DNA of 64,000 nt, taken from contig NZ_CP075171.1 in assembly GCF_021379005.1 (NCBI RefSeq), positions 4,216,001 through 4,280,000 of the forward strand, given 5' to 3'. The stretch comes from Leptodesmis sichuanensis A121 (GTDB taxonomy: Bacteria; Cyanobacteriota; Cyanobacteriia; Leptolyngbyales; Leptolyngbyaceae). Shown here one piece after another: positions 29,632 to 57,108 of the stretch (the stretch's first letter is position 1; the number at the start of each line of letters is the position of its first letter). The notes under the pieces are model-generated. The model did no database searches. It was not told the DNA's origin and was given only the letters and a program-made list of their open reading frames with translations. Both the position numbers and the translations under genes were made by a program.

Positions 29632-29676
29632 GGCTAAAGAAACCAACATCATTTAGTTGAATTGAAGGGTCATACC

Positions 29677-32600
29677 GTGGATTTCTTTCCTGCTCCGGGT
29701 CACTCGCTCCTCGAAAATCAGTCCCTCCTGTCGTTCAATGCAGCGGCCACCAGTCTTTATTCAAATGCTGGTTCTCTTACTTCTTCACAATTCGCCTCGC
29801 CCTTTCAGGACACTTTCTCTTCATCCTGGTGGCGTTCTCCGGCATCACTCGATCATGACCATGCAAGAGATGGGGGTGCCGTTGCGATTTTTGATCCTTC
29901 CGTTGCCGATATCTCGACGCTGATTGCTGGACTGGCTCCCGGAACAGACGTTTACATCCTGGATCCAACGTGGGATGCGATCGCCCAAATCACCAGTATC
30001 CTGGCCCACGAACACAATATTTCCAACCTCAGCCTGTTTGCCCACGGAGATCCTGGAGAAATCGACTTTAGCTCCATGACCTTCGATTTCAGCGATCTGG
30101 GGACTTACTCAGCAGATTTGCAACAGTGGACAAAATCTTTAGCCCAGGGAGCCGGAATCTCCATCTATAGCTGTGAGCTGGCTGGCAGTGAGCAGGGAAA
30201 AGCCTTTTTACAGGAATGGAGTCAGTTAGCCGGAGTGGGGATCGCTGCATCCAGCCGTCTCATTGGCAATCAAGCCTTAGGCGGTAACTGGACGCTAGAC
30301 TTCGAGACGAGCGGCTTTACCACGCCGGATATTCTGCAAGACTGGGCAAAAGCCGCCTATCAACACGTTTTAGATACCTTCACCGTTACCAATACCAATG
30401 ACAGTGGTGCAGGTTCATTACGGCAGGCCATCCTGAATGCCAATGCCCTGGCCGGAACAGATACGATTACCTTCGATCCAACTGTATTTGGCAGCAGTCC
30501 CCAAACCATCACACTCACATCAGGCCAACTGATCATCAATGACAGTGTGGATATCTTTGGGCCACTGAGCAGCACCCTCACTGTCAGTGGTAACAACTCC
30601 AACCGGGTCTTCTTTGTCAACCAAGGCACGGTCAATCTAGCCAATTTTACGATCGCCAACGGCTTAGCCAGAGGTGGGGATGGCAGTAGCGGTGGCGGTG
30701 GCGGTGGCGGCTTCGGCGGCGGTCTGTTCATCAACAGTGGCACGGTCAACTTAACCAATCTCGTCTTCACGGGCAACCAGGCGATCGGGGGTAACGGGGG
30801 TACTGGTGCCGGTGGCGGTGGCGGTGGCCTCGGGGGTAGAGGCGGCATCGGCGGTGGCGGCGGTGGCGGCGGTGGCGGCTTCGCAGGCAATGGTGGTAAT
30901 GGCGACGGCAGCGGCGTAAGCGGTGGCGGTGGCGGTGGCTTCGCAGGCAATGGCGGTAATGGCACAATTACCACAGGTGGCACAGGTGGCGCAGGTACTG
31001 GAACCATTCTCGGAGGCACAGCGGCTGGGGATGGTATCGGTAGTACAGGCGGTACTGGCGGCAGTGGCGGTGGCATCGGCGGCGGCGGCGGCGGCGGTAG
31101 CAATGGTAATGGCGGGGCTGGCAGTATTGGCGGCGGCGGCGGCGGTAGTGGTGGCAACAATACTACTGGCGGCAGCGGCGGTGACTTTGGCGGCGGCGGC
31201 GGCGGCTTTAGCATTGGTGGGGCTGGCGGCTTTGGCGGCGGCGGCGGCGGCGGCTTCACGGCTGGCGGCAATGGCGGCTTTGGCGGCGGCGGTGGCAGCA
31301 GCATTGCCAGTGGTGCCGGAAATGGTCAGGGCGGAACTCTGGCTGGAACTGGCGGTAGCAATGGCGGTGGCGGTGGTGCCGGATTGGGAGGAGCCATTTT
31401 TATTCGCAATGGTTCTCTTAACATTGCGGGCGGTGTGTTTAATAACAACGCTGCTACAGGAGGTAGTGGTGGCGGCGGCGGTGCCCAGGGCGGTCAGGGG
31501 AAAGCAGGAGCTATCTTTACTGGAGCAGGCGTAACCTTTACCAGTAGTAATCTCGTCTTCAATGGCAACACTGCTTCTAATGCAGGATCGACGGCCAGCG
31601 ATAATGGCAATCTCTACGTCAGCCCACCTACGATCGCCCTTACTCCCACGACCTTACCCACTGGCACTGCCGGAACAACCTATTCTCAAACGTTGACAGC
31701 CAGCGGTGGTACCACTCCCTATAGCTTTGCAATCACGGGAGGCAGTTTACCCAGTGGATTCACCCTGTCCCCGACTGGCCAGTTGAGCGGCACCACAGGA
31801 CTGGCCGGAACCTTCAACTTCACTGCTACAGCTACGGATGCCAATAGTTTCACCGGATCGAATCCCTATCAAATTACGATCGCTCCGGCGGCTCCCTCGA
31901 TCGTCAGCTTTTTCTCTGGATCAGGACAAAGCGCTACGGTTAATAACGCTTTTGCTAATCCTTTAGCGGCCAAGGTCACAGATCAATTTAACAACCCTAT
32001 CAGTGGAGTGACTGTTACCTTCACCGCGCCTACAACAGGAGCCAGCGGCTCGTTCACGGGTGGAGCCAATACCATCACGGCGACCACAGACATCAATGGG
32101 ATTGCCACCACATCCTTTACAGCCAATACGGTCGCTGGAACCTACAGCGTGCTGGCGAATATTCAGGGTGGTACAACCCCAGCGGCCTTTAGCCTGACCA
32201 ATGCTGCTGGCAATGCTGCTAGTCTGGCCTTTACAGGCCTACCCACTAATACAGCAGCAGGAGCCTCTAATAGTTTTACAGTCACGGCTCAAGATACCTT
32301 TGGCAATACGGCCACGAGTTATAACGGTGTTGTGTTATTTACCAGCAGTGATGGACAGGCGGTGCTGCCGACCAATGCCACCCTGACGAATGGCACAGGT
32401 ACCTTCAATGCCACCCTGAGAACCATTGGCAGTCAAACCATTAATGCCAGCAGCGGAGGGCTGAGGAGCGCATCAGCTACCCTCACGGTTGATCCAGGTG
32501 CGGCCAGTACCTTGCTCATCAGTGGCCTTCCCTCCAGCACGATCGCTGGAACTCAATCGTCCCTAACCCTCACGGCGAAGGATGCCTTTGGCAATACAGT

Positions 32601-35600
32601 CACTAATTACAATGGCGTAGTGCTGCTGACCAGTAGTGATGGTCAAGCCGTTCTGCCAACCAATGCCAACCTGACGAATGGCACAGGCACCTTTAATGTC
32701 ATCCTGAAAACGGCTGGAACCCAAACCTTAAATGCCAGCAGTGGGCCATTGACCGCAACTTCAGCCAGTTTGACAGTCACACCAAGTGTGGCAACCAATT
32801 TGGCGATCGCTGGAGTTCCCGCCGCAGTAACAGCCGGAGCTTCCCAACCCTTCACCGTAACGGCCAGGGATGCCTTCGGTAACACAGCCACCAATTATAC
32901 GGGCGTAGTTTTATTCACCAGCAGTGACGGACAGGCCGTACTTCCCAGTAGCGCAGCCCTGACGAATGGCACAGGCACCTTTAATGCCACGCTGAGAACC
33001 GCCGGTACGCAATCCCTGAGGGTAACTGATACCGTCACCTCTAGCATCACAGGAACAGCTAATACCACCGTCACTCCGGCTACCGCGAATAAATTCTTAG
33101 TGACTGGCCTACCTGCCACCACCACAGCCGGAAATCCGAATTCCTTTACCGTCACTGCCCAGGATGCCTTTGGCAACACAGATACCAATTACACAGGTGT
33201 GGTCTTATTTACCAGTAGTGACGGTCAAGCCATCCTGCCTCCCAACGCCACCCTGAACAACGGCATAGGCACCTTTAGCACAATCCTACGCAGTGCCGGA
33301 ATTCAGTCTGTCCAAGTGGCTGATTCTCAGAACAGCGCCATCACCGGGCAGCAATCAGGCATTACGGTGAATCCAGCAGCCACCAGCCAGTTTTTAGTAT
33401 CTGGCTTGCCTGCCACCCTCACCGCTGGCACCCCCAATACCTTTACGGTGACGGCTCAGGATGCCTTTGGTAATACCACTCCGGGCTATACCGGAACCGT
33501 ACTCTTCACCAGTAGCGATGGCAAAGCTGTCCTCCCCACCAGCGCCACACTCAATAGTGGAACAGGCACCTTCAACGCTACTTTAAGAACCGCCGGTACC
33601 CAGTCCGTAACTGCTACCGATTCCAGAACCAGTAGTATTACGGGCACCCAGTCAGGCATCACGGTGAATGCGGGTGCAGCCACTGCACTTGCTTTAACAG
33701 GTCTGCCCACTACTTTGGCAGCAGGCACCTCGCAAGCTATCACTGTCACCGCGCAGGATGATTTTGGCAATACGGCCACAGGCTACAACGGGGTGGTGCT
33801 ATTCACTAGCAGTGATGGACAGGCGGTTCTCCCGACCAATGCCAACTTGACCAACGGCGCAGGCACTTTCAATGCCACCTTAAGAACCGCAGGCAATCAA
33901 ACCGTCAGTGTGAGCAGTGGTGTTCTGAGAGGAGCTTCAGCCAGTGTGGCAGTGACAGCAGGGGCTGCCAGTCAATTCCTGGTTGCTGGAATTCCCAGCA
34001 CTGTTGTGGCAGGTACCGCACAACCTTTAACCGTGACTGCCCAGGATAGCTTTGGCAACACCGCAACCACCTACAACGGCGTGGTGCTGTTTACCAGTAA
34101 TGATGGACAGGCGATTCTCCCGACCAATGCCAGACTGACCAATGGTACAGGTAACTTTAATGCCACTTTAAGAACTGCAGGTACTGGCAGAACGATCACC
34201 GCTACCGACTCCACCAATAGCAGCATTACGGGTAGTGCAACAGGCATCACTGTAGTTCCAGGTGCGGCCAGCACCTTGTTGCTATCTGGATTCCCCTCCA
34301 CAGTGACGGCAGGCGATCCCCAATCCGTAACTGTCACGGCTCAGGATGCCTTTGGCAACACGGCTACGGGTTACAGCGGTGTGGTCTTGTTTACCAGTAG
34401 TGATGGTCAGGCCGTTCTTCCGTCGAGTGCCACCGTTACGGGAGGAACCGGAACCTTTAATGCCACCCTGAGAACGGCTGGACAACAATCCCTGACAGCA
34501 ACTGATTCCGTCAACAACACTCTGACCACAACGCTATCAGGCATCACCGTCAATCCAGCTACAGCCAGCAGTTTCCTAATTACTGGCCCCAGTACCGTGA
34601 CAGCAGGAACGGCTCAAAACTTTACCGCGGTCGCAAAAGATGCTTTTGGCAATACGGCCACAGGTTATACCGGAACGGTGCTGTTCACCAGTAGTGACGG
34701 ACAGGCGGTGCTGCCCACTAATGTCACCTTTAATAATGGCACTGCTACCTTCTCGGCCACTTTGAGAACAGCAGGTACACGATCGCTCACCATTACCGAC
34801 TCCACCAATAGCAGCCTCACCGGAACCAACGCTGGCATTACAGTCACTCCAGCCGATGCCAGCTCACTCCAGCTCACTGGACTGCCAGCAACGACGACTG
34901 CTGGGGTAGCCCAATCCTTTAATGTGATTGCCAGAGATCCCTTTGGGAACACGGCTACTGGATATCGGGGAGTTGTCCTGTTTACTAGCAGCGATGGTCA
35001 GGCCGTCTTACCAACCAACGCGACTTTGAATAATGGCACGGGCACCTTTAGCGCCACACTGAAAACGGCAGGGACTCAAACCCTATTAGCCAACAGTGGT
35101 AATCTCACCAGCACCCCCGTCTCAATTACCGTCAACCCAGCCGCTGCCAATAATTTCCTCGTTTCTGGCTTCCCCCAAACAGCTACCGCTGGTACCTCTC
35201 AGTCCTTCAACGTGACGGCTAGAGATGCGTTTGGTAACACCGCCACGGGGTACAACGGCGTGCTCTTGTTCACCAGCAGTGATGGTCAGGCTACTTTACC
35301 GCCCAACGGCACTCTAACCAATGGCACCGGCACCTTTAATGCCAGCCTGAAAACCGCTGGCACTCAATCCTTAACGGTCAGAGATAGCGTCAACTCGGCG
35401 ATTACAGGCACCCAAACGGGCATTGTGATCACGCCAGCCGCCACCAGTACCTTTATAGTAGCTGGATTACCTGCAACGACCGTAGCTGGCACCTCTCAGC
35501 CCTTCACCGTGACTGCCAAAGATGACTTTGGCAATACCACGACGGGTTACAACGGTGTAGTGCTATTTACTAGCAGTGACGGACAGGCGGTGCTGCCAAC

Positions 35601-38600
35601 AAACGCGACACTGGTGAACGGAACAGGCACCTTTGGGGCAACATTACGAACCGCTGGCCCACAATCCGTAACTGCAACAGATGCCAGCAATTCCAGCATT
35701 ACAGGCACCCAATCAAATATTCTGGTGACTCCAGCCGCCGCCAGTAACTTTGTGGTGTCGGGCTTCCCCAACAATACGATCGCAGGCACTGCGCAAACCT
35801 TCGATGTCCTGGCTAAGGATCCTTTCGGCAATACGGCAGTCGGCTATACCGGAACCGTGCTCTTCACCAGCAGTGATGGTCAGGCGGTTCTCCCGACCAA
35901 TGCCAGGTTGACCAATGGGGCAGGTACCTTTAGCGCCACCCTGAAAACGGCTGGAACCCAATCCCTGAGAGCAACGGATAGCACAAACTCCAGCATTACT
36001 GGCGTACAGACTGGCATCACAATTCTGCCGTCCACAGCGACGAAACTCTTAGTCTCCGGGTTCCCGACCACTGTGGTTGCGGGTACATCCCAGTCCCTCA
36101 CCGTCACAGCTCAGGATGAGTTTGGCAATACGGCCACAGGTTACAACGGTGTGCTGCTGTTTACCAGTAATGACGGGCAGGCGGTTCTCCCAACGAATGC
36201 CACGCTGACCAATGGGACAGGCACCTTCAACGCCACTCTGAGAACCGTGGGTACGACGCGATCGATCACTGCCACCGACTCCACCAACAACACCATTACA
36301 GGCACACAATCGGGCATTACAGTGACTCCCGCAGCCGCCAGTCGGTTCGTGGTCTCTGGATTTGGCAATCCATCTGTCGCAGGCACTCAGAAAGCCTTCA
36401 CCGTCACCGCTCAAGATGCCTTTGGTAACATAGACACCAACTACAACGGGGTGGTGCTATTCACCAGCAATGACGGACAGGCAACCTTACCCAGCAATTC
36501 CAGACTGACGAATGGGACGGGCACCTTCAACGCCACGTTAAGGACAGCAGGAACGCGATCGCTGACTGCCACTGATTCCACCAATAGCAATATCACTGGC
36601 ACCCAGGCTGGTATTGTGATCACCCCAGCCGCCACCAACCGTTTGCAGTTAACTGGTTTACCCACAAGCACTACAGCAGGAGTTGCCAATAACTTCACAG
36701 TCACCGCCCAGGATGCATTCGGCAATACGACTCCTGGCTATACCGGAACCGTGCTCTTCACCAGCAGTGATGGGCAGGCCGTTCTGCCCACTAATACCAC
36801 CCTGGTCAACGGAACAGGTAACTTCATTGCTACGCTGAGAACTGCTGGCAGCCAATCTATCAGTGTCAACAGCACAGGTTTGACAGGAGCCTCTTCCACC
36901 CTCACCGTGACTCCAGCCGCCGCCAGCCTCTTGACCTTAACTGGCCCCACAACCACTGCCGCCGGTGCGGCCCAACCCTTTACGGTAACGGCGAAAGATG
37001 CCTTCGGCAATATCGATACCAATTACACGGGTACCGTTCTATTTACCAGCAGCGATGGCCAAGCAGTTCTTCCCACAAACGCGACCTTAAACGCTGGCAC
37101 AGGCACCTTTAATGCCACGCTGAGAACAGTCGGTACGCAAACCCTGAATATCAGCAGCGGTAATTTGACAGGGGCTTCCACCAGTCTGACCGTTACTCCA
37201 GGAACCGCTACAAGGTTGGTGCTTAGCGGACTGCCCACAACCACGATCGCTGGCACATCCCAAACCTTCACCCTGACAGCTCAGGATGCCTTTGGTAATA
37301 CTGCGACCAACTACAGTGGAGTCGTACTGTTCACCAGCAGTGATGGGCAAGCGGTGCTGCCTACCAACGTCTCGTTGAATCAGGGAACAGGAACATTCTC
37401 GGCAACCCTGAGAACTGCTGGCACCCAGGGCCTGATTGCCAATAGCGGCAATCTCACCAGTGCGGCAGCGAACATCACGGTCACTCCAGCCGCAGCCAGC
37501 ACCTTCCAGATTGCAGGATTACCAGCCAGCACCCAGGCCGGAACTGCCAATAACTTTACACTGACAGCAAGGGATGCTTTCGGGAACACGGCAACGGGCT
37601 ATACGGGTACCGTCCTGTTTACCAGCAGTGATGGTCAGGCGGTTCTACCTCCTGGCAGCACCCTCACCAATGGAGTTGGTACCTTCAGTGCTACCTTCGG
37701 AACGGCAGCGACCCAATCCCTGACCGCACGGGATAGCGTCATTCCCACCATTACAGGAACTCGCTCCGGCATCATCGTCACACCGGGAGCAACCAGCCAG
37801 TTCCGGGTCACAGGTTTGCCACCATCCACCACTGCCGGAGCCGCAAATCCACTGACGGTTACGGCTCAGGATGCTTTTGGCAATATCACACCAACTTACA
37901 CAGGCTCAGTAAGGTTCACCAGCAGTGATGCTCAGGCAGTCCTACCGACCAGCGTGTCCTTTAGCAGTGGTACTGGCACGATTACTACGGGAGTAGTGCT
38001 GAAAACAGCAGGTCTCCAATCTGTTACCGCGATCGACACCCAGGACAGCAACATTACGGGCACCCTATCCGGTGTCACCGTAACTCCAGCCGCCACCAGT
38101 ACTCTGCTCGTGAGTGGCCTACCAGCCACCGTTACCGCCGGAACCGCCAATGCTTTCACCGTCACGGCTCAGGATGCCTTCGGCAACATTACACCGGGAT
38201 ACGCAGGCAGACTGCGGTTCACCAGTAATGATAATCAGGCCATCCTACCTGTTGACACGACGTTAACCAATGGCGTGGGCAACTTCACCGCGACCTTGAG
38301 GACGGCAGGAACGCGATCGCTGACCGCTACCGACACAGGTAATCCTTCCTTAACTGGTACTCAGTCGGGTATCACCGTGAATCCGGCTGCCGCCAGTACC
38401 CTGCTGGTATCTGGCTTCCCGGCACTGACCACAGCCGGAACCCAGCAAGCCTTTACCGTGACAGCTCAAGATCCCTTTGGCAACATCGCGACGGGCTACA
38501 CTGGCACTTTACTGTTTACCAGTAGCGATGGTCAGGCCGTATTACCAACTAACTCAACCCTGACCAATGGCACAGGTACTTTCAATGCCACCCTGAGAAC

Positions 38601-40362
38601 AGCAGGGAGTCAAACGTTAATCGCCAGTGATTCCACCAACGCCAGCCTGACTGGAAACCAATCCGGCATTACCGTCACCCCGGCGGCAACTAGCACGTTC
38701 TCGCTTTCTGGCTTCCCCTCCACAGTAACGGCAGGAAATCAACAGTCCTTCACAGTGACCGCTCAGGATGCCTTTGGCAACACGACTCCGGGCTACACAG
38801 GGGTAGTTGTCTTCACCAGCAATGATGGTCAGGCTGTCTTGCCTAATAGCAGTGGTTTGGTCAATGGGGTTGGTAACTTCACCGCGACCTTGAAGACGGC
38901 TGGTGCCCGATCGCTGACCGCCACCGATCTGGCAAACAACAGTATTACGGCCACTCAAACGGGAATCACCGTGAACCCAGCAGCAACCAGTCAGATCGTT
39001 GTCGCTGGCTTACCCAGCACTACCACTGCCGGAGTTAATCAAACCTTTACCGTCACGGCACAAGATCCCTTTGGGAATGTCACTCCAAGTTATACAACCC
39101 CGATCGCCTTTGCCAGCAGCGATAGTCAGGCCGTATTGCCAACCAGTGCCCCACTCACCAACGGCACAGGTAGCTTTACCACCAACTTAAGGACGGCAGG
39201 CAATCAAACCTTTACGGTCAGCAGTGGTAATCTGCCTGCGGTACTTTCTAACCTGACTGTGAATGCCGCCGCCGCCAGCGTCGTGATCCCAACCGTAGCA
39301 ACCACCCAGGCAGTCGATATTAATCGCACGTTGTTCAACCCGCTACGAGTTCGAGTTACGGATGCATTCGGTAACCCTATTGCAGGCAATACCGTTACCT
39401 TCAGTGCGCCTTCTAGTGGCCCTGGAGCTACCTTCAACGGCAGTGTGACCGTTACCACCAATGGTCTCGGCATTGCCACCGCTTCTCCCCTAGTCGCTAA
39501 CAATCAACTAGGAACTTACAATGTCACCGCAACTGCCGCTGGAGTTGCTACACCAGTGACCTTCAACTTCACCAACCGCAATCCGTTCATTATTGACTTT
39601 AACGGAGACAATAAATCTGATCTGATCTGGCGTGAGAGCAGTACCAATACCAATGGATTCTGGTTATTGGATGGAGTCGTGTTCAGTACCGCTGTTGCCA
39701 CTTCTCTTGCTCCAACCCCTGATCTAAATTGGGCGATCGCCAGTTCCGGTGACTTTAATGGAGATGGACAACGGGATCTGTTGTGGCGCAATAATGCTAC
39801 AGGAGAAAACCTCGTCTGGTTGATGAACGGCACTACGTCCCTTAGCTCTGTCGCCCTACCCTCTGCGCCTGCCGGTTGGTACATCGCTGGCACTGGAGAC
39901 TTTGTAGGCGATGGCGGAGTAGATATCGTTTGGCGAAACTACATCACTGGCGATAATGGCTTCTGGTTGATGAACGGCACCAGCTTAACTGGTACAGTGT
40001 CTTTGGGAACTGTACCAACCAATTGGGCAATTGCTGGAGTAGGCGACTTGAACGGCGATGGTCAACCCGATCTACTGTGGCAGAATTATACGGATGGAAC
40101 CCTTGGTTATTGGGCGATGAATGGAACTTCTTTCGTTTCCGGTGTCACCTTACAATCATTCAGTCCTCCGAATTGGGTACTGAGCGGCTTAGCTGACTTT
40201 ACCGGAGACGGACAACCCGACTTCCTGTGGCGAAATTATGTTACTGGGGAAAATGGAATTTGGGTTATGAATGGGGCTAATTTTGTGTCAAGCGTGGAAC
40301 TCCCATCCCCCATCCCTGCAAGCTGGACATTAACCAACAAACCCCCGATCGTTCCGGTTTAA
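29677..40362 (+). CDS. Giant surface-type protein: DUF4347, Gly-rich beta-helix, 24 x 98-aa repeats, FG-GAP repeats
   Basis: About 3,561 residues from GTG 29677, chosen because AAGGG lies 7 bases upstream; TTG 29662 is the alternative. Order: DUF4347 at about 65-220 (SLFAHGDPGEIDFSS, SIYSCELAGSEQGKAF); a beta-helix start (TVTNTNDSGAGSLRQAILNA); a Gly-rich tract at about 330-615; an Ig-like He_PIG module (about 650-737); a Big_1-like module; 24 tandem units of about 98 aa (consensus VVLFTSSDGQAVLPTNATLT) at about 845-3200; another Big_1-like module; five FG-GAP/VCBS-type units with Ca-loop text (DFNGDGQRDLLWRN) to the end. There is no signal peptide. DUF4347 giants are known in cyanobacteria as probable secreted or surface proteins; adhesion is an inference. 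Confidence 0.92.
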   Translation: MDFFPAPGHSLLENQSLLSFNAAATSLYSNAGSLTSSQFASPFQDTFSSSWWRSPASLDHDHARDGGAVAIFDPSVADISTLIAGLAPGTDVYILDPTWDAIAQITSILAHEHNISNLSLFAHGDPGEIDFSSMTFDFSDLGTYSADLQQWTKSLAQGAGISIYSCELAGSEQGKAFLQEWSQLAGVGIAASSRLIGNQALGGNWTLDFETSGFTTPDILQDWAKAAYQHVLDTFTVTNTNDSGAGSLRQAILNANALAGTDTITFDPTVFGSSPQTITLTSGQLIINDSVDIFGPLSSTLTVSGNNSNRVFFVNQGTVNLANFTIANGLARGGDGSSGGGGGGGFGGGLFINSGTVNLTNLVFTGNQAIGGNGGTGAGGGGGGLGGRGGIGGGGGGGGGGFAGNGGNGDGSGVSGGGGGGFAGNGGNGTITTGGTGGAGTGTILGGTAAGDGIGSTGGTGGSGGGIGGGGGGGSNGNGGAGSIGGGGGGSGGNNTTGGSGGDFGGGGGGFSIGGAGGFGGGGGGGFTAGGNGGFGGGGGSSIASGAGNGQGGTLAGTGGSNGGGGGAGLGGAIFIRNGSLNIAGGVFNNNAATGGSGGGGGAQGGQGKAGAIFTGAGVTFTSSNLVFNGNTASNAGSTASDNGNLYVSPPTIALTPTTLPTGTAGTTYSQTLTASGGTTPYSFAITGGSLPSGFTLSPTGQLSGTTGLAGTFNFTATATDANSFTGSNPYQITIAPAAPSIVSFFSGSGQSATVNNAFANPLAAKVTDQFNNPISGVTVTFTAPTTGASGSFTGGANTITATTDINGIATTSFTANTVAGTYSVLANIQGGTTPAAFSLTNAAGNAASLAFTGLPTNTAAGASNSFTVTAQDTFGNTATSYNGVVLFTSSDGQAVLPTNATLTNGTGTFNATLRTIGSQTINASSGGLRSASATLTVDPGAASTLLISGLPSSTIAGTQSSLTLTAKDAFGNTVTNYNGVVLLTSSDGQAVLPTNANLTNGTGTFNVILKTAGTQTLNASSGPLTATSASLTVTPSVATNLAIAGVPAAVTAGASQPFTVTARDAFGNTATNYTGVVLFTSSDGQAVLPSSAALTNGTGTFNATLRTAGTQSLRVTDTVTSSITGTANTTVTPATANKFLVTGLPATTTAGNPNSFTVTAQDAFGNTDTNYTGVVLFTSSDGQAILPPNATLNNGIGTFSTILRSAGIQSVQVADSQNSAITGQQSGITVNPAATSQFLVSGLPATLTAGTPNTFTVTAQDAFGNTTPGYTGTVLFTSSDGKAVLPTSATLNSGTGTFNATLRTAGTQSVTATDSRTSSITGTQSGITVNAGAATALALTGLPTTLAAGTSQAITVTAQDDFGNTATGYNGVVLFTSSDGQAVLPTNANLTNGAGTFNATLRTAGNQTVSVSSGVLRGASASVAVTAGAASQFLVAGIPSTVVAGTAQPLTVTAQDSFGNTATTYNGVVLFTSNDGQAILPTNARLTNGTGNFNATLRTAGTGRTITATDSTNSSITGSATGITVVPGAASTLLLSGFPSTVTAGDPQSVTVTAQDAFGNTATGYSGVVLFTSSDGQAVLPSSATVTGGTGTFNATLRTAGQQSLTATDSVNNTLTTTLSGITVNPATASSFLITGPSTVTAGTAQNFTAVAKDAFGNTATGYTGTVLFTSSDGQAVLPTNVTFNNGTATFSATLRTAGTRSLTITDSTNSSLTGTNAGITVTPADASSLQLTGLPATTTAGVAQSFNVIARDPFGNTATGYRGVVLFTSSDGQAVLPTNATLNNGTGTFSATLKTAGTQTLLANSGNLTSTPVSITVNPAAANNFLVSGFPQTATAGTSQSFNVTARDAFGNTATGYNGVLLFTSSDGQATLPPNGTLTNGTGTFNASLKTAGTQSLTVRDSVNSAITGTQTGIVITPAATSTFIVAGLPATTVAGTSQPFTVTAKDDFGNTTTGYNGVVLFTSSDGQAVLPTNATLVNGTGTFGATLRTAGPQSVTATDASNSSITGTQSNILVTPAAASNFVVSGFPNNTIAGTAQTFDVLAKDPFGNTAVGYTGTVLFTSSDGQAVLPTNARLTNGAGTFSATLKTAGTQSLRATDSTNSSITGVQTGITILPSTATKLLVSGFPTTVVAGTSQSLTVTAQDEFGNTATGYNGVLLFTSNDGQAVLPTNATLTNGTGTFNATLRTVGTTRSITATDSTNNTITGTQSGITVTPAAASRFVVSGFGNPSVAGTQKAFTVTAQDAFGNIDTNYNGVVLFTSNDGQATLPSNSRLTNGTGTFNATLRTAGTRSLTATDSTNSNITGTQAGIVITPAATNRLQLTGLPTSTTAGVANNFTVTAQDAFGNTTPGYTGTVLFTSSDGQAVLPTNTTLVNGTGNFIATLRTAGSQSISVNSTGLTGASSTLTVTPAAASLLTLTGPTTTAAGAAQPFTVTAKDAFGNIDTNYTGTVLFTSSDGQAVLPTNATLNAGTGTFNATLRTVGTQTLNISSGNLTGASTSLTVTPGTATRLVLSGLPTTTIAGTSQTFTLTAQDAFGNTATNYSGVVLFTSSDGQAVLPTNVSLNQGTGTFSATLRTAGTQGLIANSGNLTSAAANITVTPAAASTFQIAGLPASTQAGTANNFTLTARDAFGNTATGYTGTVLFTSSDGQAVLPPGSTLTNGVGTFSATFGTAATQSLTARDSVIPTITGTRSGIIVTPGATSQFRVTGLPPSTTAGAANPLTVTAQDAFGNITPTYTGSVRFTSSDAQAVLPTSVSFSSGTGTITTGVVLKTAGLQSVTAIDTQDSNITGTLSGVTVTPAATSTLLVSGLPATVTAGTANAFTVTAQDAFGNITPGYAGRLRFTSNDNQAILPVDTTLTNGVGNFTATLRTAGTRSLTATDTGNPSLTGTQSGITVNPAAASTLLVSGFPALTTAGTQQAFTVTAQDPFGNIATGYTGTLLFTSSDGQAVLPTNSTLTNGTGTFNATLRTAGSQTLIASDSTNASLTGNQSGITVTPAATSTFSLSGFPSTVTAGNQQSFTVTAQDAFGNTTPGYTGVVVFTSNDGQAVLPNSSGLVNGVGNFTATLKTAGARSLTATDLANNSITATQTGITVNPAATSQIVVAGLPSTTTAGVNQTFTVTAQDPFGNVTPSYTTPIAFASSDSQAVLPTSAPLTNGTGSFTTNLRTAGNQTFTVSSGNLPAVLSNLTVNAAAASVVIPTVATTQAVDINRTLFNPLRVRVTDAFGNPIAGNTVTFSAPSSGPGATFNGSVTVTTNGLGIATASPLVANNQLGTYNVTATAAGVATPVTFNFTNRNPFIIDFNGDNKSDLIWRESSTNTNGFWLLDGVVFSTAVATSLAPTPDLNWAIASSGDFNGDGQRDLLWRNNATGENLVWLMNGTTSLSSVALPSAPAGWYIAGTGDFVGDGGVDIVWRNYITGDNGFWLMNGTSLTGTVSLGTVPTNWAIAGVGDLNGDGQPDLLWQNYTDGTLGYWAMNGTSFVSGVTLQSFSPPNWVLSGLADFTGDGQPDFLWRNYVTGENGIWVMNGANFVSSVELPSPIPASWTLTNKPPIVPV
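30670..31520 (+). repeat. GGC/GGT-rich low-complexity tract inside the giant gene
   Basis: Nearly every codon is Gly (GGN) with scattered Asn, Ser and Ala. Runs of GGCGGC up to about 18 bases occur. The opposite strand therefore stays open as a Pro-rich frame, which is an artefact. Slipped-strand length changes and assembly errors are likely in such DNA. Confidence 0.9.
32212..39270 (+). repeat. 24 tandem coding repeats of about 294 bp
   Basis: The unit is about 98 codons. Each has the strand text AGLPATTTAGTSQSFTVTAQ-like, then DAFGNTATGYTG, then VLFTSSDGQAVLP, then GTFNATLRTAGTQSLTATDS and a tail NSSITGTQSGITVTP. Counting FTSSDGQAVLP and its variants (FTSNDGQ, FTSSDAQ, FASSDSQ) gives 24. 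Units are similar at DNA level but not identical. Two classes differ in the tail: a short tail ending in ASSG- or NSGNLT-type text, and a longer one with ATDSTNSSITG. Confidence 0.93.
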
Positions 40363-49101: not shown

Positions 49102-49851
49102 TTAGCGAGATCCCATCCACTGATAAAAGTAATAGGTTGCCATAGGGACGATCGTCGCCACAATTAAAAAGCCAACCACCCAGACCGTCGCGTTACTGGA
49201 TTTGGTTTTCTCCGGGGTGGCAAACGTGCCTTCTACCATCACATCACTCTTGAGCTCCGGCGGGCCAGGATCCGCTTGACCAGAAAGGACGGCGACCAGG
49301 CGATCGCTGGCTCCCAGAATGGCCTGGTTATACTTGTTGCCTTCTTTCAGGGGAATCAGTACGCTTTCCTGGGCCACGCTGTTGGCAATCGCATCAGACA
49401 TCACCTGTTTTACCTGTGCCCCTGTCCGAATTCCCGTGTTGTTGGTGACATTATCAATCACCAGCAACACCTGCTTGGCTTGCTCTTCCGGAGTGGGAAA
49501 CCAGCGTTCAAACAATTTATCTGCAAACGTCTGAGCCGTCTCGTCATAGTCCAGGCGGTGAATGCTAACAAATCTCACCTCATATCCCTTTGCCTTCGCC
49601 AAGTCAGAGAACTCCGAACTGACTTTTCCTTCGCTGCTCCGGCTCAAAATATCAGCCTTATCAATCACCCAGGTATCCGAGCTTAGTTCAGGAATCTCAT
49701 AAATGCTGGTCGCTGAAGCCGGGGCGGCCATCAGTTGGGTAACCAAAACCAGGGCGATCGCCACCAAGAAGAGCCGTCGCCACGAAGCCAACGGGTTCAT
49801 GAGCCGCGATCGCAACCAATGAATAGCGGGTTGATGGAGGAGCCGTCTCAT
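49102..49851 (-). CDS. psb32: TPM-domain protein, Psb32-like
   Basis: 249 residues from ATG 49851 (alternative ATG 49800). N-terminal signal (RRLFLVAIALVLVTQLMAAP, cleavage after ASA), a TPM domain at about 50-190 (DTWVIDKADILSRSSEGKVS, LLVIDNVTNNTGIRTGAQVK), and one C-terminal membrane helix (TVWVVGFLIVATIVPMATYY). Psb32 (TPM-containing) proteins protect and help repair photosystem II at the thylakoid. The overall plan of signal, TPM and C-terminal anchor fits. The gene lies between ccaA and the Hsp70/actin-like gene, all on the minus strand. Confidence 0.82.
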   Translation of the reverse strand: MRRLLHQPAIHWLRSRLMNPLASWRRLFLVAIALVLVTQLMAAPASATSIYEIPELSSDTWVIDKADILSRSSEGKVSSEFSDLAKAKGYEVRFVSIHRLDYDETAQTFADKLFERWFPTPEEQAKQVLLVIDNVTNNTGIRTGAQVKQVMSDAIANSVAQESVLIPLKEGNKYNQAILGASDRLVAVLSGQADPGPPELKSDVMVEGTFATPEKTKSSNATVWVVGFLIVATIVPMATYYFYQWMGSR

Positions 49852-49971
49852 AAATGGAACTCTTTCGCAACTTATCTTTATCAAGATAGTACCGTAAGGA
49901 AAGCCCAACTGGTTTCCCGTGGGGTCGCTGGCCATCAACCAAACCAGCAAAACTCATCAAGCGATTTTTGA

Positions 49972-51630
49972 CTAAGAATCGAGTGACTGGATTGCTGAAG
50001 TGGTGATCAGGTTTGCTGGCAAAGGGGCTGTCAGGGTTTGCCGAGTGTGAGCCAGGATGAGTTGCAGGTAAGCCCAGAGACGATCGCGTTGTTTGGGAAC
50101 TACCTGATACAGATAATTGTCCTGTCGGGAAAAGAGGGGCGCGGCGAGATGAATCAGTTCTTTCGTTGGGGAGTGGGCATCCGTTGCAAACAGCATGGCA
50201 CTCACGCGACCGGGTACTAGCCCCGTAGGGATCTGCCCTTCCAGGAAATTCAGGAGCGCGGTTTCACAGTCGTCAGTGTTCAGTCCCTGCTCCTTCAGTC
50301 GTTGCAGGATGCGAGAACTGGATAGGGGTTGCTCTGGTTGGTTGAGAAACGCTTCCAGTAACTTGCGTAATAGAAAGAGTTCACTGTACTGATGCCGCAT
50401 CCGATCCAGAACGCCGGGAAACAGCGGTAGCAGCGATAACCCTGAACTAATGCGTTGATGACTGGCCAGGGCAGCCCCCTCTGCTAATCCTGGATCTTGA
50501 ATAATTTGGGCTGTGGGAAACTTGTCTTGCAAGCTCTGGGCGATCGCTGGGATAGACGCTGTGCCTCCGGTACAAATTACCCGTCGAATAGCCTCAGAAC
50601 TAGAACCAGCTTGCATCAGTAACAGACTTAACTCCCGGTGAATTTGTTGCAGATAGGGGGCCATGACCCAGTTATGAAAATCAATTTGGCGCAGGTTGTA
50701 GCATTCCTGTTCCCAGGCAAAGGTGGCATCTCCCTGAATCAGCTTGAGTTTCAGCGATCTAACCTGGGTTAACAACTGTTGCCCTAAGTCACTGCTTGCG
50801 AGTTTCTGCTGCAGTTGGTAGCGAATTTCTAAGTCAGGTTCTCCTGCCAAAGGGGTCAGTAGATCTGTGAGTTCTGCCCAATTGCCCTGCAACGGGTACA
50901 ACAACTGACAAATAATATCCTGATCGAGGGCATTGCCGCCGTAAGAGCAGCGACGCAGTACCAGGTCTGAACGCTTCAGTTCGTAAGGATTGCTAGGCAG
51001 GTGGGCCAACAGAAGATCGGTACTGGTCGCCCCCGCACTGATGACTAATACAACTTCAGTGAGCGCTGTTGGAGCGTCGGGATCTAAGAGGGCAGTTGAT
51101 TCAGTGGCAGTTGCTACCTGCTTCGGTTGGTGCAGTTCTGGCAACAAGGCCGCGATCGCCTCTTCCAGGAAGAAAATTTGCTCCGGGTTGGGTACCAGTC
51201 CGGCAGCCAGCACAATCTCACGCAGGTTGAAACAATAGGCATCGGAGGCTCCCGCGGGATAGCTCAGGATTACTCCCGCCAATTGCTGCATCACTTGATT
51301 CAGCGTGGAGTCATCCAATCCTGCGGCTGTGCAACCTGTTTCTGCGGCATTTGTTTCAGGATTGGCCAGAGGAGTTAAGCGGGTCACCAGGGCCTGTTCT
51401 ACGGCAGCTAAGGGGATGGTCTGACCCAGCGATCGCTGAATTTTGGGTTCCCACTCGTGAGTTTGGGGAGAACAGAAAGGAATGGCTACATTCAGGTAGG
51501 GCTTAAAGCTATGCAACGGAGGGACTAAAGACCCAGCGGAGGATCTAGACTCAGGCCAGGACAATGGGTGCTGTTGAGACGTAATTGGATTAAACAAAAC
51601 CGCTGCGATCGAGGTGGTGCCAATATCCAA
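49972..51630 (-). CDS. Hsp70/actin-like ATPase without its own good start codon
   Basis: 552 residues if the TTG at 51630 is used. Actin-superfamily motifs: phosphate-1 (GLDIGTTSIAAVLF; the TTG falls inside it), phosphate-2 region VVLVISAGATSTDLLLAHLP, and adenosine motif RVICTGGTASIPAIAQSLQD, then a helical C-terminus of about 150 residues. Starting at the TTG would cut off the first beta-strand (AKAWYLG). The frame is open upstream for 25 more codons to a slippery A10 run, and contains no ATG or GTG. The simplest explanation is that it is the C-terminal part of a -1 frameshift product of the 898-aa gene, 577 residues being added after the shift. Chaperone or cytoskeletal role is unknown. 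Confidence 0.72.
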   Translation of the reverse strand: MDIGTTSIAAVLFNPITSQQHPLSWPESRSSAGSLVPPLHSFKPYLNVAIPFCSPQTHEWEPKIQRSLGQTIPLAAVEQALVTRLTPLANPETNAAETGCTAAGLDDSTLNQVMQQLAGVILSYPAGASDAYCFNLREIVLAAGLVPNPEQIFFLEEAIAALLPELHQPKQVATATESTALLDPDAPTALTEVVLVISAGATSTDLLLAHLPSNPYELKRSDLVLRRCSYGGNALDQDIICQLLYPLQGNWAELTDLLTPLAGEPDLEIRYQLQQKLASSDLGQQLLTQVRSLKLKLIQGDATFAWEQECYNLRQIDFHNWVMAPYLQQIHRELSLLLMQAGSSSEAIRRVICTGGTASIPAIAQSLQDKFPTAQIIQDPGLAEGAALASHQRISSGLSLLPLFPGVLDRMRHQYSELFLLRKLLEAFLNQPEQPLSSSRILQRLKEQGLNTDDCETALLNFLEGQIPTGLVPGRVSAMLFATDAHSPTKELIHLAAPLFSRQDNYLYQVVPKQRDRLWAYLQLILAHTRQTLTAPLPANLITTSAIQSLDS

Positions 51631-51698
51631 GCCTAGATACCAGGCTTTGGCCCCCGATTGTGAGGAATCCTGGGATGAATCGGGAGCAGACGGTTCAG

Positions 51699-54395
51699 TT
51701 AGCGCTTTTTTTTTTCGAAATCTGATGGCGGGGGGGCAGGGGGTTCTTCTGTTACATAAGGAGCCGCGATCGACCCCATCAGGCTTTCAAACGCCTCATC
51801 TAGCTTTTGTTCTGCAACGTCCGTGGAAGCAGTCTCTGGAGTGGAGGATTCGGCAGCAAATAAGTTTTCTACTTCAATAAATAAACTATCTAATCGTTCT
51901 AACTGAAAGGGGGGCACAGTTCCGACCTCCGGTTTTTGCACCACAGATGAGGGCTGAAATGGAGGAATCTCTTTGATCGGGGCATTCCGGTTGCCGATGG
52001 GAGGAGAGGCCGTGGATGGACTAATCGGAGGTGCATTCTCAAAGATGTCATCCATGCCTTCCAGCGTGAAGGGTGAGGTGTAATCCTCTGCTGGAACTTG
52101 AGGTGCAGGGGACGGGGAGGATGATGCAGCGGGTGGAGTGGTTGGTGCAAGATCGGCGGCAAATTCATCCAGGGTAAAAGCTGGTGGGGACGACAGGGGA
52201 AGGTCCCTAGATTGTGCGATCGCCGGTTCCTGATGCACATCAGCAGACCCAAACTCGTAACTAAAGTTTTCTAAATTGACCAGATCCTGATTCAGGCTAG
52301 AGAGAGTCAACTCATCCAGTTCTAGATTCGGAGCTACCACATCTGTTGGGGCATCGGGTAGCAGATTTTCATCAGAGGCTACCCGAGTATATTGCTCCTC
52401 CAGAGAATCTTCTAAAGACTCAGGAGTGCCCCCAAATTCGCGCTTTTCCGGTGAGAAGAGTTCCAGGGGGGTGGGCGCGTCACTTCGAATTAATTCACTA
52501 TAGGTTTGTTCAATGGGAACTTTGATCGCCCTGTTATTTCCTGGGGGAGTGCTGGATGGTGGCGCGATCGGAGGTGCAACGGGCGTGGAATGTTCCTGTT
52601 CCGTCTGGACAGTGCTAAATAAATCGGCCAGGGAACTGATTTGATCGGATGCTGAAAACGATACAGCCTCTTGATCAACAGCAGGTGGGGGAGGAATAAC
52701 CAGATCGGGCCGAGTTGGGGACGCTTCCACGTCGGTTAAGTCATCCAATCGGTTGTCAGGAAGCTGGATTGGGGGTAGGGATGGGGCTTCCTCGAACAGG
52801 TTTTCCAGGAACAGTTCTTCACCAGCAGAGGGTGGCGTTGCGACAGTAGGGGCGATCGGGGGTAAGGTTGCTTCGGGTGTAGGTTTAGATTCCGTTTCAG
52901 AGGTAGGTTCACTCTCAGATGCTGCCACCTCAGATGCCCCGAACAAGCTCTGGTAGAACTCATCCAGTTCATCCTGTGCATCAGGGGGAATTTCTGGGAG
53001 AGCAACATCCTCTCCCGTCAGCGAAGTACTGCCGAGCATGGCATCCAACTGGGCTTCTGCATCTGCCACAGACATGGACGGGGAAGCCGTATGCAATTCC
53101 GCACTCAAGTTTTCCAGGAGTTTCAGGGCGGTATCGATCTCGGTGGCCTCCTCTTCATTCTGGGCCACCTCTGCAGGATGGTCGGCAGCTTCCTGAGAGG
53201 CCAGGTGTAGCGAGGTTACTGGTGCCAACTCCAGGTCGCTTAAGTCCAGAGCGGGCAAGGCTGGTTCCTGTTTCGTGGCGGCGGGCGGTGGCTGTTCCTG
53301 GCTTCTGGCAAAGTCCAACCAAGCGGCGATCGCCGCATTGGTGGCTGAATCCGCTGGGAGGGGAGGCAACTCTACTGCGGGTGTTGCTGGAGCAGTTCCT
53401 TCTGTCTGAGAACGATCTGTCGTGAAGATTTCTGTACCCGCATAGGAAAAATTGGGGACAAATGGCGGAGATGGTGCAGGGGAAGTGACCGGACTGACTG
53501 GGGGTGGGGAGACAGATTCTGGAGCGATCTCGGTTTCTGAAGTCGAAGGAGTTGCTGGAGCCAGCGGTTGGGATGCTGTATCAGTGCCAGTTGTAGAGGT
53601 GGGGTGCGATCGGGGAGTCTCAGCGGCAGATGGTAAGTAAGTAGAGACTTCTTGCTGGAGCTGTTGAGCCAGCATTTCTACCAGCGCCTTGAAGGTCATT
53701 TCGCTCTGCTGCCCCAAACTGTGCATCCGTTCCAGCCCCTGGGCAAGCGAGTCCTGGTAGGTCTGAATATTTCGTTGCAATGATTCAAAGACAATATTCA
53801 AAGTCGCATCCAGGTTGACCAGCATCTGGTCAGAGCGTCTCCGGAGAGCCTGGAACTGCTCATATTGCGTTGTGGAAAGGGCCGAGGGAGACATTCCTGT
53901 ACCCAACATATAATCTGAGCGGGGCGGAAAAGTGTGACCTCCTGTTGGGCCAAGGGCTTGAGCAATTTGTTGAGTTAAGTGCTCTTGGAGGCGATTCATT
54001 AAGACCTGGAGCAACTCTGCACTGGCCGGATGCTGGTGCGGAGAGGTCAGACTGACTCGTAATTGACTGATTTCCTGCAATACTCGTTCTAATAGTTGCT
54101 GAGTCGTGGCATTGGCAGGGGAGGGGGTTTCAAAAGCGGGCGATCGGGTTGGATCTTGGGAAGGCTGGTAGTACAGATCCTGCGACAAAATCGCTGTGCC
54201 TGGGGCTGGACTCGTTCCTGGGGCGATCGTGGGCTGCTGTTGCAGAGACACTAAATAATTGCGTACCCGCTCTAAAACCTGCTGCTGTTGGGTAGCCTCT
54301 CCCGATGCCCTCCAGGGCAGACGCGGGTTGGCCCGTTGGAGAACACTATCAATCTCAGCGATTAATGCCTGGATTTGATCCTTCTGAGAAGTCAC
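51699..54395 (-). CDS. Large acidic Pro/Glu-rich protein with repeated L-D-x-L-F-type motifs
   Basis: 898 residues. The first 260 or so are helical (QIQALIAEIDSVLQRA, then TTQQLLERVLQEISQLRVSL and FQALRRRSDQMLVNLDATLN). The rest is a long, disordered-looking acidic region with recurrent short hydrophobic-acidic motifs: DEFYQSLFGASEV, LFLENLFEEAPS, SLADLFSTVQTEQ, PLELFSPEKRE, MDDIFENAPP, LDSLFIEVENLFA and LDEAFESLMGS. These look like docking sites for one partner. No catalytic domain is seen. The last zero-frame codons (GAA AAA AAA AAG CGC TAA) carry the slippery heptamer A AAA AAG; shifting would add the Hsp70/actin-like ATPase. Confidence 0.75.
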   Translation of the reverse strand: MTSQKDQIQALIAEIDSVLQRANPRLPWRASGEATQQQQVLERVRNYLVSLQQQPTIAPGTSPAPGTAILSQDLYYQPSQDPTRSPAFETPSPANATTQQLLERVLQEISQLRVSLTSPHQHPASAELLQVLMNRLQEHLTQQIAQALGPTGGHTFPPRSDYMLGTGMSPSALSTTQYEQFQALRRRSDQMLVNLDATLNIVFESLQRNIQTYQDSLAQGLERMHSLGQQSEMTFKALVEMLAQQLQQEVSTYLPSAAETPRSHPTSTTGTDTASQPLAPATPSTSETEIAPESVSPPPVSPVTSPAPSPPFVPNFSYAGTEIFTTDRSQTEGTAPATPAVELPPLPADSATNAAIAAWLDFARSQEQPPPAATKQEPALPALDLSDLELAPVTSLHLASQEAADHPAEVAQNEEEATEIDTALKLLENLSAELHTASPSMSVADAEAQLDAMLGSTSLTGEDVALPEIPPDAQDELDEFYQSLFGASEVAASESEPTSETESKPTPEATLPPIAPTVATPPSAGEELFLENLFEEAPSLPPIQLPDNRLDDLTDVEASPTRPDLVIPPPPAVDQEAVSFSASDQISSLADLFSTVQTEQEHSTPVAPPIAPPSSTPPGNNRAIKVPIEQTYSELIRSDAPTPLELFSPEKREFGGTPESLEDSLEEQYTRVASDENLLPDAPTDVVAPNLELDELTLSSLNQDLVNLENFSYEFGSADVHQEPAIAQSRDLPLSSPPAFTLDEFAADLAPTTPPAASSSPSPAPQVPAEDYTSPFTLEGMDDIFENAPPISPSTASPPIGNRNAPIKEIPPFQPSSVVQKPEVGTVPPFQLERLDSLFIEVENLFAAESSTPETASTDVAEQKLDEAFESLMGSIAAPYVTEEPPAPPPSDFEKKKR
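51705..51711 (-). promoter_or_regulatory. Slippery heptamer A AAA AAG, candidate -1 frameshift site
   Basis: On the minus strand the zero-frame codons read GAA AAA AAA AAG CGC TAA. The heptamer A AAA AAG is in the canonical X XXY YYZ register, the one used by bacterial dnaX. After a -1 slip the next codons are GCG CTA ACT GAA, which continue without stop into the ATPase frame. The A10 run could also cause transcriptional slippage. It could instead be a sequencing error; no downstream pseudoknot was modelled. Confidence 0.55.
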
Positions 54396-54717: not shown

Positions 54718-55431
54718 ATGTTGCACTCGATGGAAGATCGGTTCGGTTCTCAAGATCACTCTTCTAGCCTTTCCATTCGCTCGGCCCCTTTCTTTGAGGG
54801 ATTACCGGAGGAAGCCGTGGAGCGGGCAACGGCGAATGTGGTCACCCGGAGGCATCCCCCCAATCAAGTCATTTTGCTGGAAAATGATTGGGGTAGTTCA
54901 GTTTATTTTATTTTAAGTGGTTGGGTAAAAATTCGGACTTACAACCTGGATGGCCGGGAAGTCACTCTTAATATTTTAGGGAAAGGGGAATTGTTTGGTG
55001 AGATGGCTCCCCTGGATGAGGTTCCCCGATCGACGGATGTCATTACCCTGGCTCCTACCGTGATTGGGAATATGCCTGCTCAGGACTTTGTCCGACTCCT
55101 GAATACGGAGCCTCAAGCGGGGATCCGGTTAGCTAAGTTAATGGCTCGTCGTCTGCGACAGGTCAACCGACGGCTACGCTTGCGGGAGTCGGATAGTATG
55201 TCGCGAGTCGCGGATATCCTGCTTTTCCTGGCCGATGGTCAAGGCAAACAAGGAGCCCATGGAACAGAAATTCCTAACCTGCCGCATCGCGAACTGAGCA
55301 GTCTGAGTGGTCTGGCCCGCGAAACCGTGACCCGCGTCCTCAGCAAGCTGGAAAAGAAAGGATTGATCAGCCGCGATCGCGATGTCCTTTGCATCCCCGA
55401 CACCCACGCGCTGGAACGACTGATGCTCTGA
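54718..55431 (+). CDS. Crp/Fnr-family transcription regulator
   Basis: 237 residues. The N-terminal cyclic-nucleotide-binding fold has PPNQVILLENDWGSSVYFIL and KGELFGEMAPLDEVPRSTDV, then a long dimer helix (LAKLMARRLRQVNRRLRLRE). The C-terminal HTH is typical: HRELSSLSGLARETVTRVLS followed by LEKKGLISRDRDVLCI. Whether it binds cAMP is uncertain: the pocket has GEMAPLDEVPRST, with a Glu and an Arg-Ser as in cAMP receptors, but it is not identical to characterised cyanobacterial SYCRP1. No motif specific to the nitrogen regulator NtcA was recognised. It is divergent from the acidic-protein gene. Confidence 0.9.
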   Translation: MLHSMEDRFGSQDHSSSLSIRSAPFFEGLPEEAVERATANVVTRRHPPNQVILLENDWGSSVYFILSGWVKIRTYNLDGREVTLNILGKGELFGEMAPLDEVPRSTDVITLAPTVIGNMPAQDFVRLLNTEPQAGIRLAKLMARRLRQVNRRLRLRESDSMSRVADILLFLADGQGKQGAHGTEIPNLPHRELSSLSGLARETVTRVLSKLEKKGLISRDRDVLCIPDTHALERLML

Positions 55432-55491: not shown

Positions 55492-57108
55492 TTACCCCCT
55501 CGCTCCTACTGTTGCTGGCTCTAGCAGAGGGATCAGTTTCAGGCCAAATTGTTCTTCAAAGCTAGATTTTTTGTTCTCCAGGCTCCAGAGTTCCAGGGCG
55601 CAGTCATCACCCAGACGGGCGGGTTGCAGGTGCAGGCACAGTTCTCCCCGATCGGGACGAAATTCGCAGGTAATTTGCTGGATTGCTCCAATCTGGCGGC
55701 GATCGAGGGCAACGGCCAGTCGTAGTAAGGGACTGAGTTGGTCAACCATGCGCCGATGAGGTTTGCTGGTCAGGTTGCGATAGTTTTCGTGTTTCTTCTT
55801 GGGATTGTTTTTCCGGTGATAGCGAGCCAGATTGGCGATCGTCTCCACCTCTGTTTCCGTGAATCCCAACAGTTCCCCGTTGCGGATCAGATAGTAGGAG
55901 TGTTTGTGGTGGGCGGAATGGCTGATGAAGTGTCCGCAATTGTGCAGGATGGCGGCGGCCCACAGGAGTTCCCGGGCTTCTTCGCCCCACTGGTGCAGCA
56001 CGCCCTGAGTCTGATCAAATAAGCTCATGGCAAAGGCGGCCACTCGTTCACTGTAAATCAGGTTGACCCGATATTTCTGGGCGATTTTCAGGACACTGCG
56101 CTGACGAATGGAACTCTGGTAACGCAGCCGATCTTCAATCAGGCCATGAGTCAGCATCCAGTCTACAATCACGCCTTCCCGCAGCGATCGCTCACAAATG
56201 GTGATCGACTCCAGTCCCAGCAGGGTCATCGCTTCCTGCAGAATTAAGGCTCCGGCCAGGATGATTTCCGCCCGCCGATCGTTCATTCCGGGTAGTTGGG
56301 CGCGATCGTGACAACTGAGGCGACGGAAGCGATGCACCATCTCCCGCAGATCTTGCAGGTTGAAGCGATAGCCGTGCAGGGGATCAGGTACAACTCCCAG
56401 GTGTTCGCGAGCGTGCAGGGTCGCCAGGGTTTCGATCGTTCCAGAGGTGCCGACCAGTTTGGGAACTTCACCTGGTCGCAAATGGGCTTGCAATTCTTCT
56501 ATAGGCCGTTCCAACATTCCCTGGATGTAGGCTTGCAAGGTTTGAAACTCTTTTGAACTGATGGGATCAGTGCTGACATATTCATTGGTCAAGCGGACTG
56601 CCCCAATTTTGGTACTGCTGAGGGAGCGGGGATCATGGCCATCGCCCAGGATTAGTTCCGTAGAGCCACCCCCAATGTCAATCACAATATGGGGTTTCCC
56701 ATCGAACTCAATATCCGACAACACCCCCAGATAAATTCGGCGAGCTTCTTCCACCCCAGAGATGAGATTAATCCATAGCCCCAACTCGGAGGCCACCCGC
56801 TGCAAAAAGTCTCGCCCGTTGGGAGCTTCCCGCACTGCACTGGTGGCCACGGCGATAATTTGCTCAGAATTCAGACTTTTGGAAATCTCCTGACATCGCT
56901 TCAGAGCATCGATCGCCCGCTGCATGGCCTCCTCAGTCAGAAACCCGGTTTGCTGACAGCGTTCTCCCAGACGAACCGTCGCTTTTTCTCTAGCAATGAT
57001 GGTAAAAGCAGGCAGGGTTGGCTGGATCCGCACTACCACCATGTGGATCGAGTTCGTACCAACGTCAATGGCCGTCAGAATGCGATCGTAATCCGCGAGC
57101 ATTTTCAA
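55492..57108 (-). CDS. ppx: Exopolyphosphatase / guanosine pentaphosphatase (Ppx/GppA)
   Basis: 538 residues. Actin-like ATPase fold: ILTAIDVGTNSIHMVVVRIQ at the start, SAVREAPNGRDFLQRV, then the phosphate motif HIVIDIGGGSTELILGDG, and a C-terminal HD-like domain (HNCGHFISHSAHHKHSYYLI). It removes terminal phosphates from polyphosphate or converts pppGpp to ppGpp. The gene converges with the Crp-type gene, ends about 60 bases apart. Length and domain plan match two-domain Ppx proteins. Which activity dominates cannot be told. Confidence 0.92.
   Translation of the reverse strand: MKMLADYDRILTAIDVGTNSIHMVVVRIQPTLPAFTIIAREKATVRLGERCQQTGFLTEEAMQRAIDALKRCQEISKSLNSEQIIAVATSAVREAPNGRDFLQRVASELGLWINLISGVEEARRIYLGVLSDIEFDGKPHIVIDIGGGSTELILGDGHDPRSLSSTKIGAVRLTNEYVSTDPISSKEFQTLQAYIQGMLERPIEELQAHLRPGEVPKLVGTSGTIETLATLHAREHLGVVPDPLHGYRFNLQDLREMVHRFRRLSCHDRAQLPGMNDRRAEIILAGALILQEAMTLLGLESITICERSLREGVIVDWMLTHGLIEDRLRYQSSIRQRSVLKIAQKYRVNLIYSERVAAFAMSLFDQTQGVLHQWGEEARELLWAAAILHNCGHFISHSAHHKHSYYLIRNGELLGFTETEVETIANLARYHRKNNPKKKHENYRNLTSKPHRRMVDQLSPLLRLAVALDRRQIGAIQQITCEFRPDRGELCLHLQPARLGDDCALELWSLENKKSSFEEQFGLKLIPLLEPATVGARG

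Follow-up and report, generated by a model that had tools for sequence, protein, structure and literature searches.

A conserved A10 run between an acidic scaffold gene and an Hsp70-like domain in cyanobacteria is a probable site of transcriptional slippage

The window analyzed here is a stretch of 64,000 nucleotides from Leptodesmis sichuanensis A121 (NZ_CP075171.1, positions 4,216,001 to 4,280,000). On its minus strand, ORF1 (51699..54395) starts with GTG and encodes an acidic, proline-rich, scaffold-like protein of 898 aa with a conserved helical N-terminal domain (VTSQKDQIQALIAEIDSVLQ...), which is the standard, unslipped product of the gene. Its 3' end reads ...TTC GAA AAA AAA AAG CGC TAA and holds a run of ten As (51706..51715, minus strand), with the TAA stop codon (51699..51701, minus strand) 4 nt past the run. 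ORF2 (49972..51705, minus strand) lies in the -1 frame relative to ORF1. That frame is open from about 51786 down to 49972 and overlaps ORF1 by 88 nt (51699..51786, minus strand), with the A10 run inside the overlap. ORF2 consists of a linker, ALTEPSAPDSSQDSSQSGAK, followed by an Hsp70/actin-fold domain that extends from WYLGLDIGTT to the end (49975..51642, minus strand). A first-pass annotation had pointed to the A10 ending of the 898-aa ORF1 and to an in-frame A AAA AAG heptamer within it, and the sequence agrees on both.

Between the run and the core motif WYLGLDIGTT, the window contains no ATG, GTG, TTG, CTG or ATT. As had been noted at first pass, the ORF2 frame has no ATG or GTG start, and its sole candidate, a TTG, sits within LDIGTT. 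In the predicted model of the domain, beta-strand 1 spans residues 2-7 (YLGLDI), so that initiation at the TTG would cut this strand in half. ORF2 is therefore described here as readable only as a fusion. Read with one extra A, the locus encodes FEKKKALTEPSAPDSS...WYLGLDIGTT..., a product computed at 1,474 aa (897+25+552), close to the initial estimate of about 1,475 aa; the junction sequence is KKKALTEPSAPDSS and the predicted junction peptide of the fusion is FEKKKALTEPSAPDSSQDSSQSGAK.

A gene for a Crp-family regulator (window 54718-55431) lies upstream of ORF1 and is divergent from it, with a Ppx/GppA phosphatase gene (55492-57108) beyond. Downstream of ORF2 is a gene for a TPM-domain protein (49102-49950), and elsewhere in the window the plus strand carries an open reading frame of 3,566 aa (29662-40362). 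Rfam, promoter and terminator scans of the locus returned nothing relevant, with promoter and terminator counts no higher than in shuffled sequence.

The C-terminal part of the fusion has a predicted Hsp70/actin nucleotide-binding fold (pLDDT 86.8, pTM 0.89). The predicted model aligns with DnaK (9a5j_A) at Z 21.2 over 338 residues and with MreB (7zpu) at Z 19.7, the best Foldseek match is 7x3k_B (E 2.6e-11), and there are weak Pfam matches to HSP70 and PilM_2. Curated DnaK models scored far below cut-off, in searches that took the C-terminal ~140 aa together with the rest. The domain resembles the nucleotide-binding domains of Hsp70/DnaK and Ssz1, PilM and the actin-fold protein MreB in its fold and in its phosphate-1 and adenosine motifs, both of which are kept. 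The phosphate-2 motif of Hsp70 proteins is of the DLGGGTFD type. In the relatives compared, this loop instead resembles xxSAGATTTE, and because the motif is replaced, hydrolysis is not assured; the domain may bind ATP without hydrolyzing it, and we use "ATPase" as a label of convenience. Further differences from Hsp70/DnaK are that no Hsp70 substrate-binding domain was recognized and that the domain is preceded by an acidic scaffold, several hundred to ~1,800 aa long. The scaffold matched no family in Pfam or NCBIfam. It had been described at first pass as bearing repeated docking motifs, a description that found little support: F..LF is barely enriched (11 versus 7.7), and about 40 of 72 scaffolds contain one YQSLFG-type motif. 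A reasonable guess from these sequences is that an Hsp70-like module under nucleotide control is attached to the acidic scaffold, and that scaffold is also made in free form.

Within the 5.35-Mb genome, 16 overlapping matches to AAAAAAAAA fall at 15 places with nine or more As. The junction run is the only A10 among them and the only place with a doubled match. Of the 14 others, eight belong to copies of a single IS630-family element (L126, L127, L128, L131, L132, L134, L138 and L139, at about position 1500 of each), in all of which (n=8) an A9 joins orfA (HTH_Tnp_IS630) to orfB (DDE_3) in the -1 register. At least one copy, L127, is shortened upstream. Long runs are also scarce across the wider set of loci: the largest A-run elsewhere in these genes is 7 (440 kb, from an earlier set of 91 loci), and just two other A/T runs of at least 9 occur in 1 Mb of loci. 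Lysine codons in the ATPase part are divided about equally between AAA and AAG (558:532), whereas the junction run is pure A. As the genome's only A10, and as a feature found at the corresponding position in relatives throughout the phylum, the run is more than a chance occurrence.

To describe the run and the reading frame in relatives, we searched for the ATPase in related genomes, in named GTDB genomes (80 loci; 176 relatives in all) and class-wide, sampling one genome per species. Strong matches were present in about half of the 146 genomes of the class-wide search, and removal of duplicates left 122 distinct loci for classification. At 68 of these, the scaffold/ATPase junction has 8-11 consecutive As on the coding strand: A10 in 51, A9 in eight, A11 in seven and A8 in two. 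One locus (L050) is cut by a contig end and its register is uncertain. Among the other 67, ORF2 lies in the -1 register across the run in 35, in register 0 in 21 and in +1 in 11, and A10 is the commonest length in every register (25/35, 16/21 and 9/11, respectively). All 46 run-bearing split loci have A9-A11, none fewer than nine. The remaining loci comprise 37 fused without a run, six split without a run and 11 too incomplete to judge. A change of frame that joins the two ORFs, as the first-pass annotation had supposed, is thus conserved, and the single fused ORFs that it suggested seeking in relatives exist both without the run (37) and in frame across it (21). Run and ORF organization are kept in non-identical relatives across many cyanobacterial families; the Nodosilinea/Leptothoe clade is a permanently fused lineage from which the run is gone. 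Many of the genomes are drafts and some frame calls come from MAG assemblies, so any single call could be in error; the evidence for the pattern comes from numbers and from complete genomes, including four single-contig genomes that are split with an A-run (the window, G022, G045 and G046).

Split genes that lack a run are organized differently at the start of the ATPase. All six have a separate ATG for the ATPase, placed 21-99 nt ahead of the core motif. One of them, L155 (genome G089), encodes the lysines near the ORF1 stop (around 6430) as AAG AAG AAG and starts its ATPase at an ATGA overlap; a locus of the same family, L154 (G068), carries an A9. The lysines can therefore be encoded without a run, and among split genes a separate ATPase start goes with absence of the run. 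Conversely, five of the 46 run-bearing split loci, the window and four others, have no ATG, GTG or TTG before the ORF2 core. About 22 of the 46 contain an ATG after the run and ahead of the core, and a separate ATPase start is possible in these. The spacer in three Symploca loci (L067, L084 and L066), where the genes are separate, contains short tandem repeats (CCCAATT, GGGAGAC and similar).

Mapped on a tree of the Hsp70-like domain (67 rows), frame state changes at least 16 times; run presence changes 10 times. Shuffling the frame states (300 shuffles) gave a mean of 27.2 changes and a minimum of 21, so frame follows the tree, and a fast on/off switch at the DNA level fits poorly. Run length is equal in three of the six nearest pairs that differ in frame; a close Microcoleus pair, CAWBG506 and EPA2, differs both in run length (A9 versus A10) and in frame. 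These data fit a run that would be kept for its length, with the frame drifting slowly by rare indels.

In the frame that is usually ORF1, a stop at most 11 nt past the run is present in 33 of 35 -1 loci, 11 of 11 +1 loci and 15 of 21 in-frame loci. As a null expectation, we held the ORF2 peptide fixed and randomized its synonymous codons according to the usage of each locus. The in-frame class has more stops than expected (15 of 21 versus 8.5, p=0.0005), as does the +1 class (11 of 11 versus 8.3, p=0.0095), in a test that ignores relatedness and in which several of the 15 loci come from Microcoleus relatives. The other frame of the in-frame class shows no excess (2 stops versus 4.1 expected). 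Conservation of the stop in genomes that read straight through suggests that the short product is provided for even there, although hidden stops could also be explained by phase variation. Several Nostocales loci keep an A10 with no stop nearby, and in these the run may be a relic.

These observations point to slippage of RNA polymerase on the run as the main route to the fusion, an explanation that we consider likely. Polymerase slipping on the A10 would generate a pool of mRNAs whose A count exceeds or falls short of that in the gene. Translation of unslipped mRNA would end one codon past the lysines and give the 898-aa scaffold, and mRNA with one additional A would give the 1,474-aa scaffold joined to the Hsp70-fold domain, so that the commonest register, -1, becomes the fusion. 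Because slippage would fill all frames, registers of -1, 0 or +1 would all be tolerated with both products made, and what is conserved would be the run and not the frame. The fusion itself is supported by conservation of the junction run and by the run-less genes, which either have their own ATG (6/6) or are fused. Published work supports the capacity of such runs: slippage on nine or more As or Ts is efficient in vivo and is used by Thermus dnaX (PMC5009743), one-base insertions predominate at runs and rise exponentially with length (PMC5574713), and an A9 in Nostoc IS elements has been attributed to transcriptional slippage (PMC1088944). We infer that slipping is done by the polymerase rather than the ribosome, that the locus yields both products and that their ratio matters. 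For the fuller account, in which a phylum-wide gene carries an A10 tuned in length, slippage gives both products in any register, and an own ATG or a permanent fusion serves elsewhere, we judge the chances to be about even.

The first-pass annotation had favored programmed -1 ribosomal frameshifting, in which the ribosome moves back one base at A_AAA_AAG or A_AAA_AAA and continues into ORF2. An in-phase A AAA AAG is indeed found in the ORF1 frame, -1 is the commonest register (35/67) and heptamers of this kind work in E. coli dnaX (PMC5009743). However, six or seven As suffice for such a shift, whereas the runs are of 8-11 and none of the 46 split loci has fewer than nine; the 11 loci in the +1 register would have to shift the other way, and the run would go unexplained in the 21 genes that are already in frame. 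Stimulatory elements are also inconsistent, with an SD-like sequence in eight of 26 loci and a mean folding z of -0.68 over the 60 nt downstream (-0.4 minus one outlier). With over-long runs, all three frames in use and no consistent SD-like or stem-loop stimulators, the main mechanism is probably something other than -1 ribosomal frameshifting, which we regard as unlikely to account for the locus. Any run of at least nine As includes a ribosomal slippery heptamer, so ribosomal shifting may nevertheless add to slippage. A second process acting on the run would be phase variation, in which replication slips in the A-run and the fusion is switched on or off between cells, as at a contingency locus. 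Variation in run length between species (8-11) and the A9/A10 Microcoleus pair with its change of frame are what such a process would produce. Against it, length is nearly fixed (A10 in 51 of 68) in all three registers, half of the nearest different-frame pairs have runs of equal length, and frame tracks the tree (16 changes against 27.2 in shuffles, minimum 21); we consider phase variation quite improbable.

Two further explanations do without slippage altogether. The run might be a lysine-rich linker encoded by As by accident, and the split frames would then be pseudogenes or errors in sequencing; KKK is read in frames across the run, and homopolymers are prone to error. Such an accident would not account for a pure-A run in genes that use AAA and AAG about equally, for the AAG codons of the run-less L155, whose ATPase has an ATG, or for the combination of split and A-run in dozens of independent assemblies, complete genomes included, and we regard it as highly unlikely. 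Sequencing error or a pseudogene was rejected on the strength of this conservation in dozens of genomes. Alternatively, ORF2 could be a separate gene, translated from a non-standard start codon or by reinitiation after the ORF1 stop. The six relatives with their own ATG indicate that an unfused ATPase is viable, but the window offers no start among the five codons searched for between run and core, save the TTG inside strand 1, four other run-bearing loci likewise lack ATG, GTG and TTG, and the linker from run to core stays open. A separate ORF2 is, in our assessment, very improbable here.

In the literature consulted, productive slippage in bacteria has been described for Thermus dnaX, IS elements, Shigella type III genes and endosymbiont genes. 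The first-pass comparison with dnaX was apt, with the difference that it is the Thermus rather than the E. coli gene that fits. Like the present locus, Thermus thermophilus dnaX (tau/gamma) has a homopolymer (of nine) in its coding sequence with stops close after it, and makes short and long products with a common N-terminus from one gene (PMC5009743). Unlike at the present locus, the Thermus gene is in frame in the genome and slippage truncates its product; here, most relatives that carry the run have the two ORFs in different frames, and slippage would fuse them. The genes are also unrelated, and the products here are not subunits of a replication clamp loader. With E. coli dnaX, which uses -1 frameshifting at A_AAA_AAG, the locus shares the heptamer in phase, but it differs in having an A10, inconsistent SD and stem-loop elements, and +1 and 0 relatives that keep the run.

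The scaffold–Hsp70-like gene looks unreported so far: we found no earlier report in the open literature searched, and the main text of the GeneTack survey does not mention it. If transcriptional slippage is correct, the gene would be a case of conserved cellular slippage that spans many cyanobacterial families and brings its own natural controls (three registers, run-less genes with their own ATG and run-less fusions). Its annotation would be likely to vary by species between two genes, a frameshifted pseudogene and a fused gene, and the product would be an uncharacterized scaffold–Hsp70-like protein with short and long forms in a set ratio.

IS630-type elements with A8-A10 runs offer a likeness within the same genome, since there too an A-run fuses two frames, orfA and orfB, as in the eight A9 copies; they are mobile, whereas the gene described here is chromosomal and kept across the phylum. 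The likeness to the IS elements of Nostoc sp. PCC 7120 (PMC1088944) concerns the A-run. Three further A9 runs in the genome (L133, L135 and L136) fall within longer ORFs (418, 237 and 535 aa, respectively) or close to where these begin, and are possibly additional slippage sites or mis-called starts.
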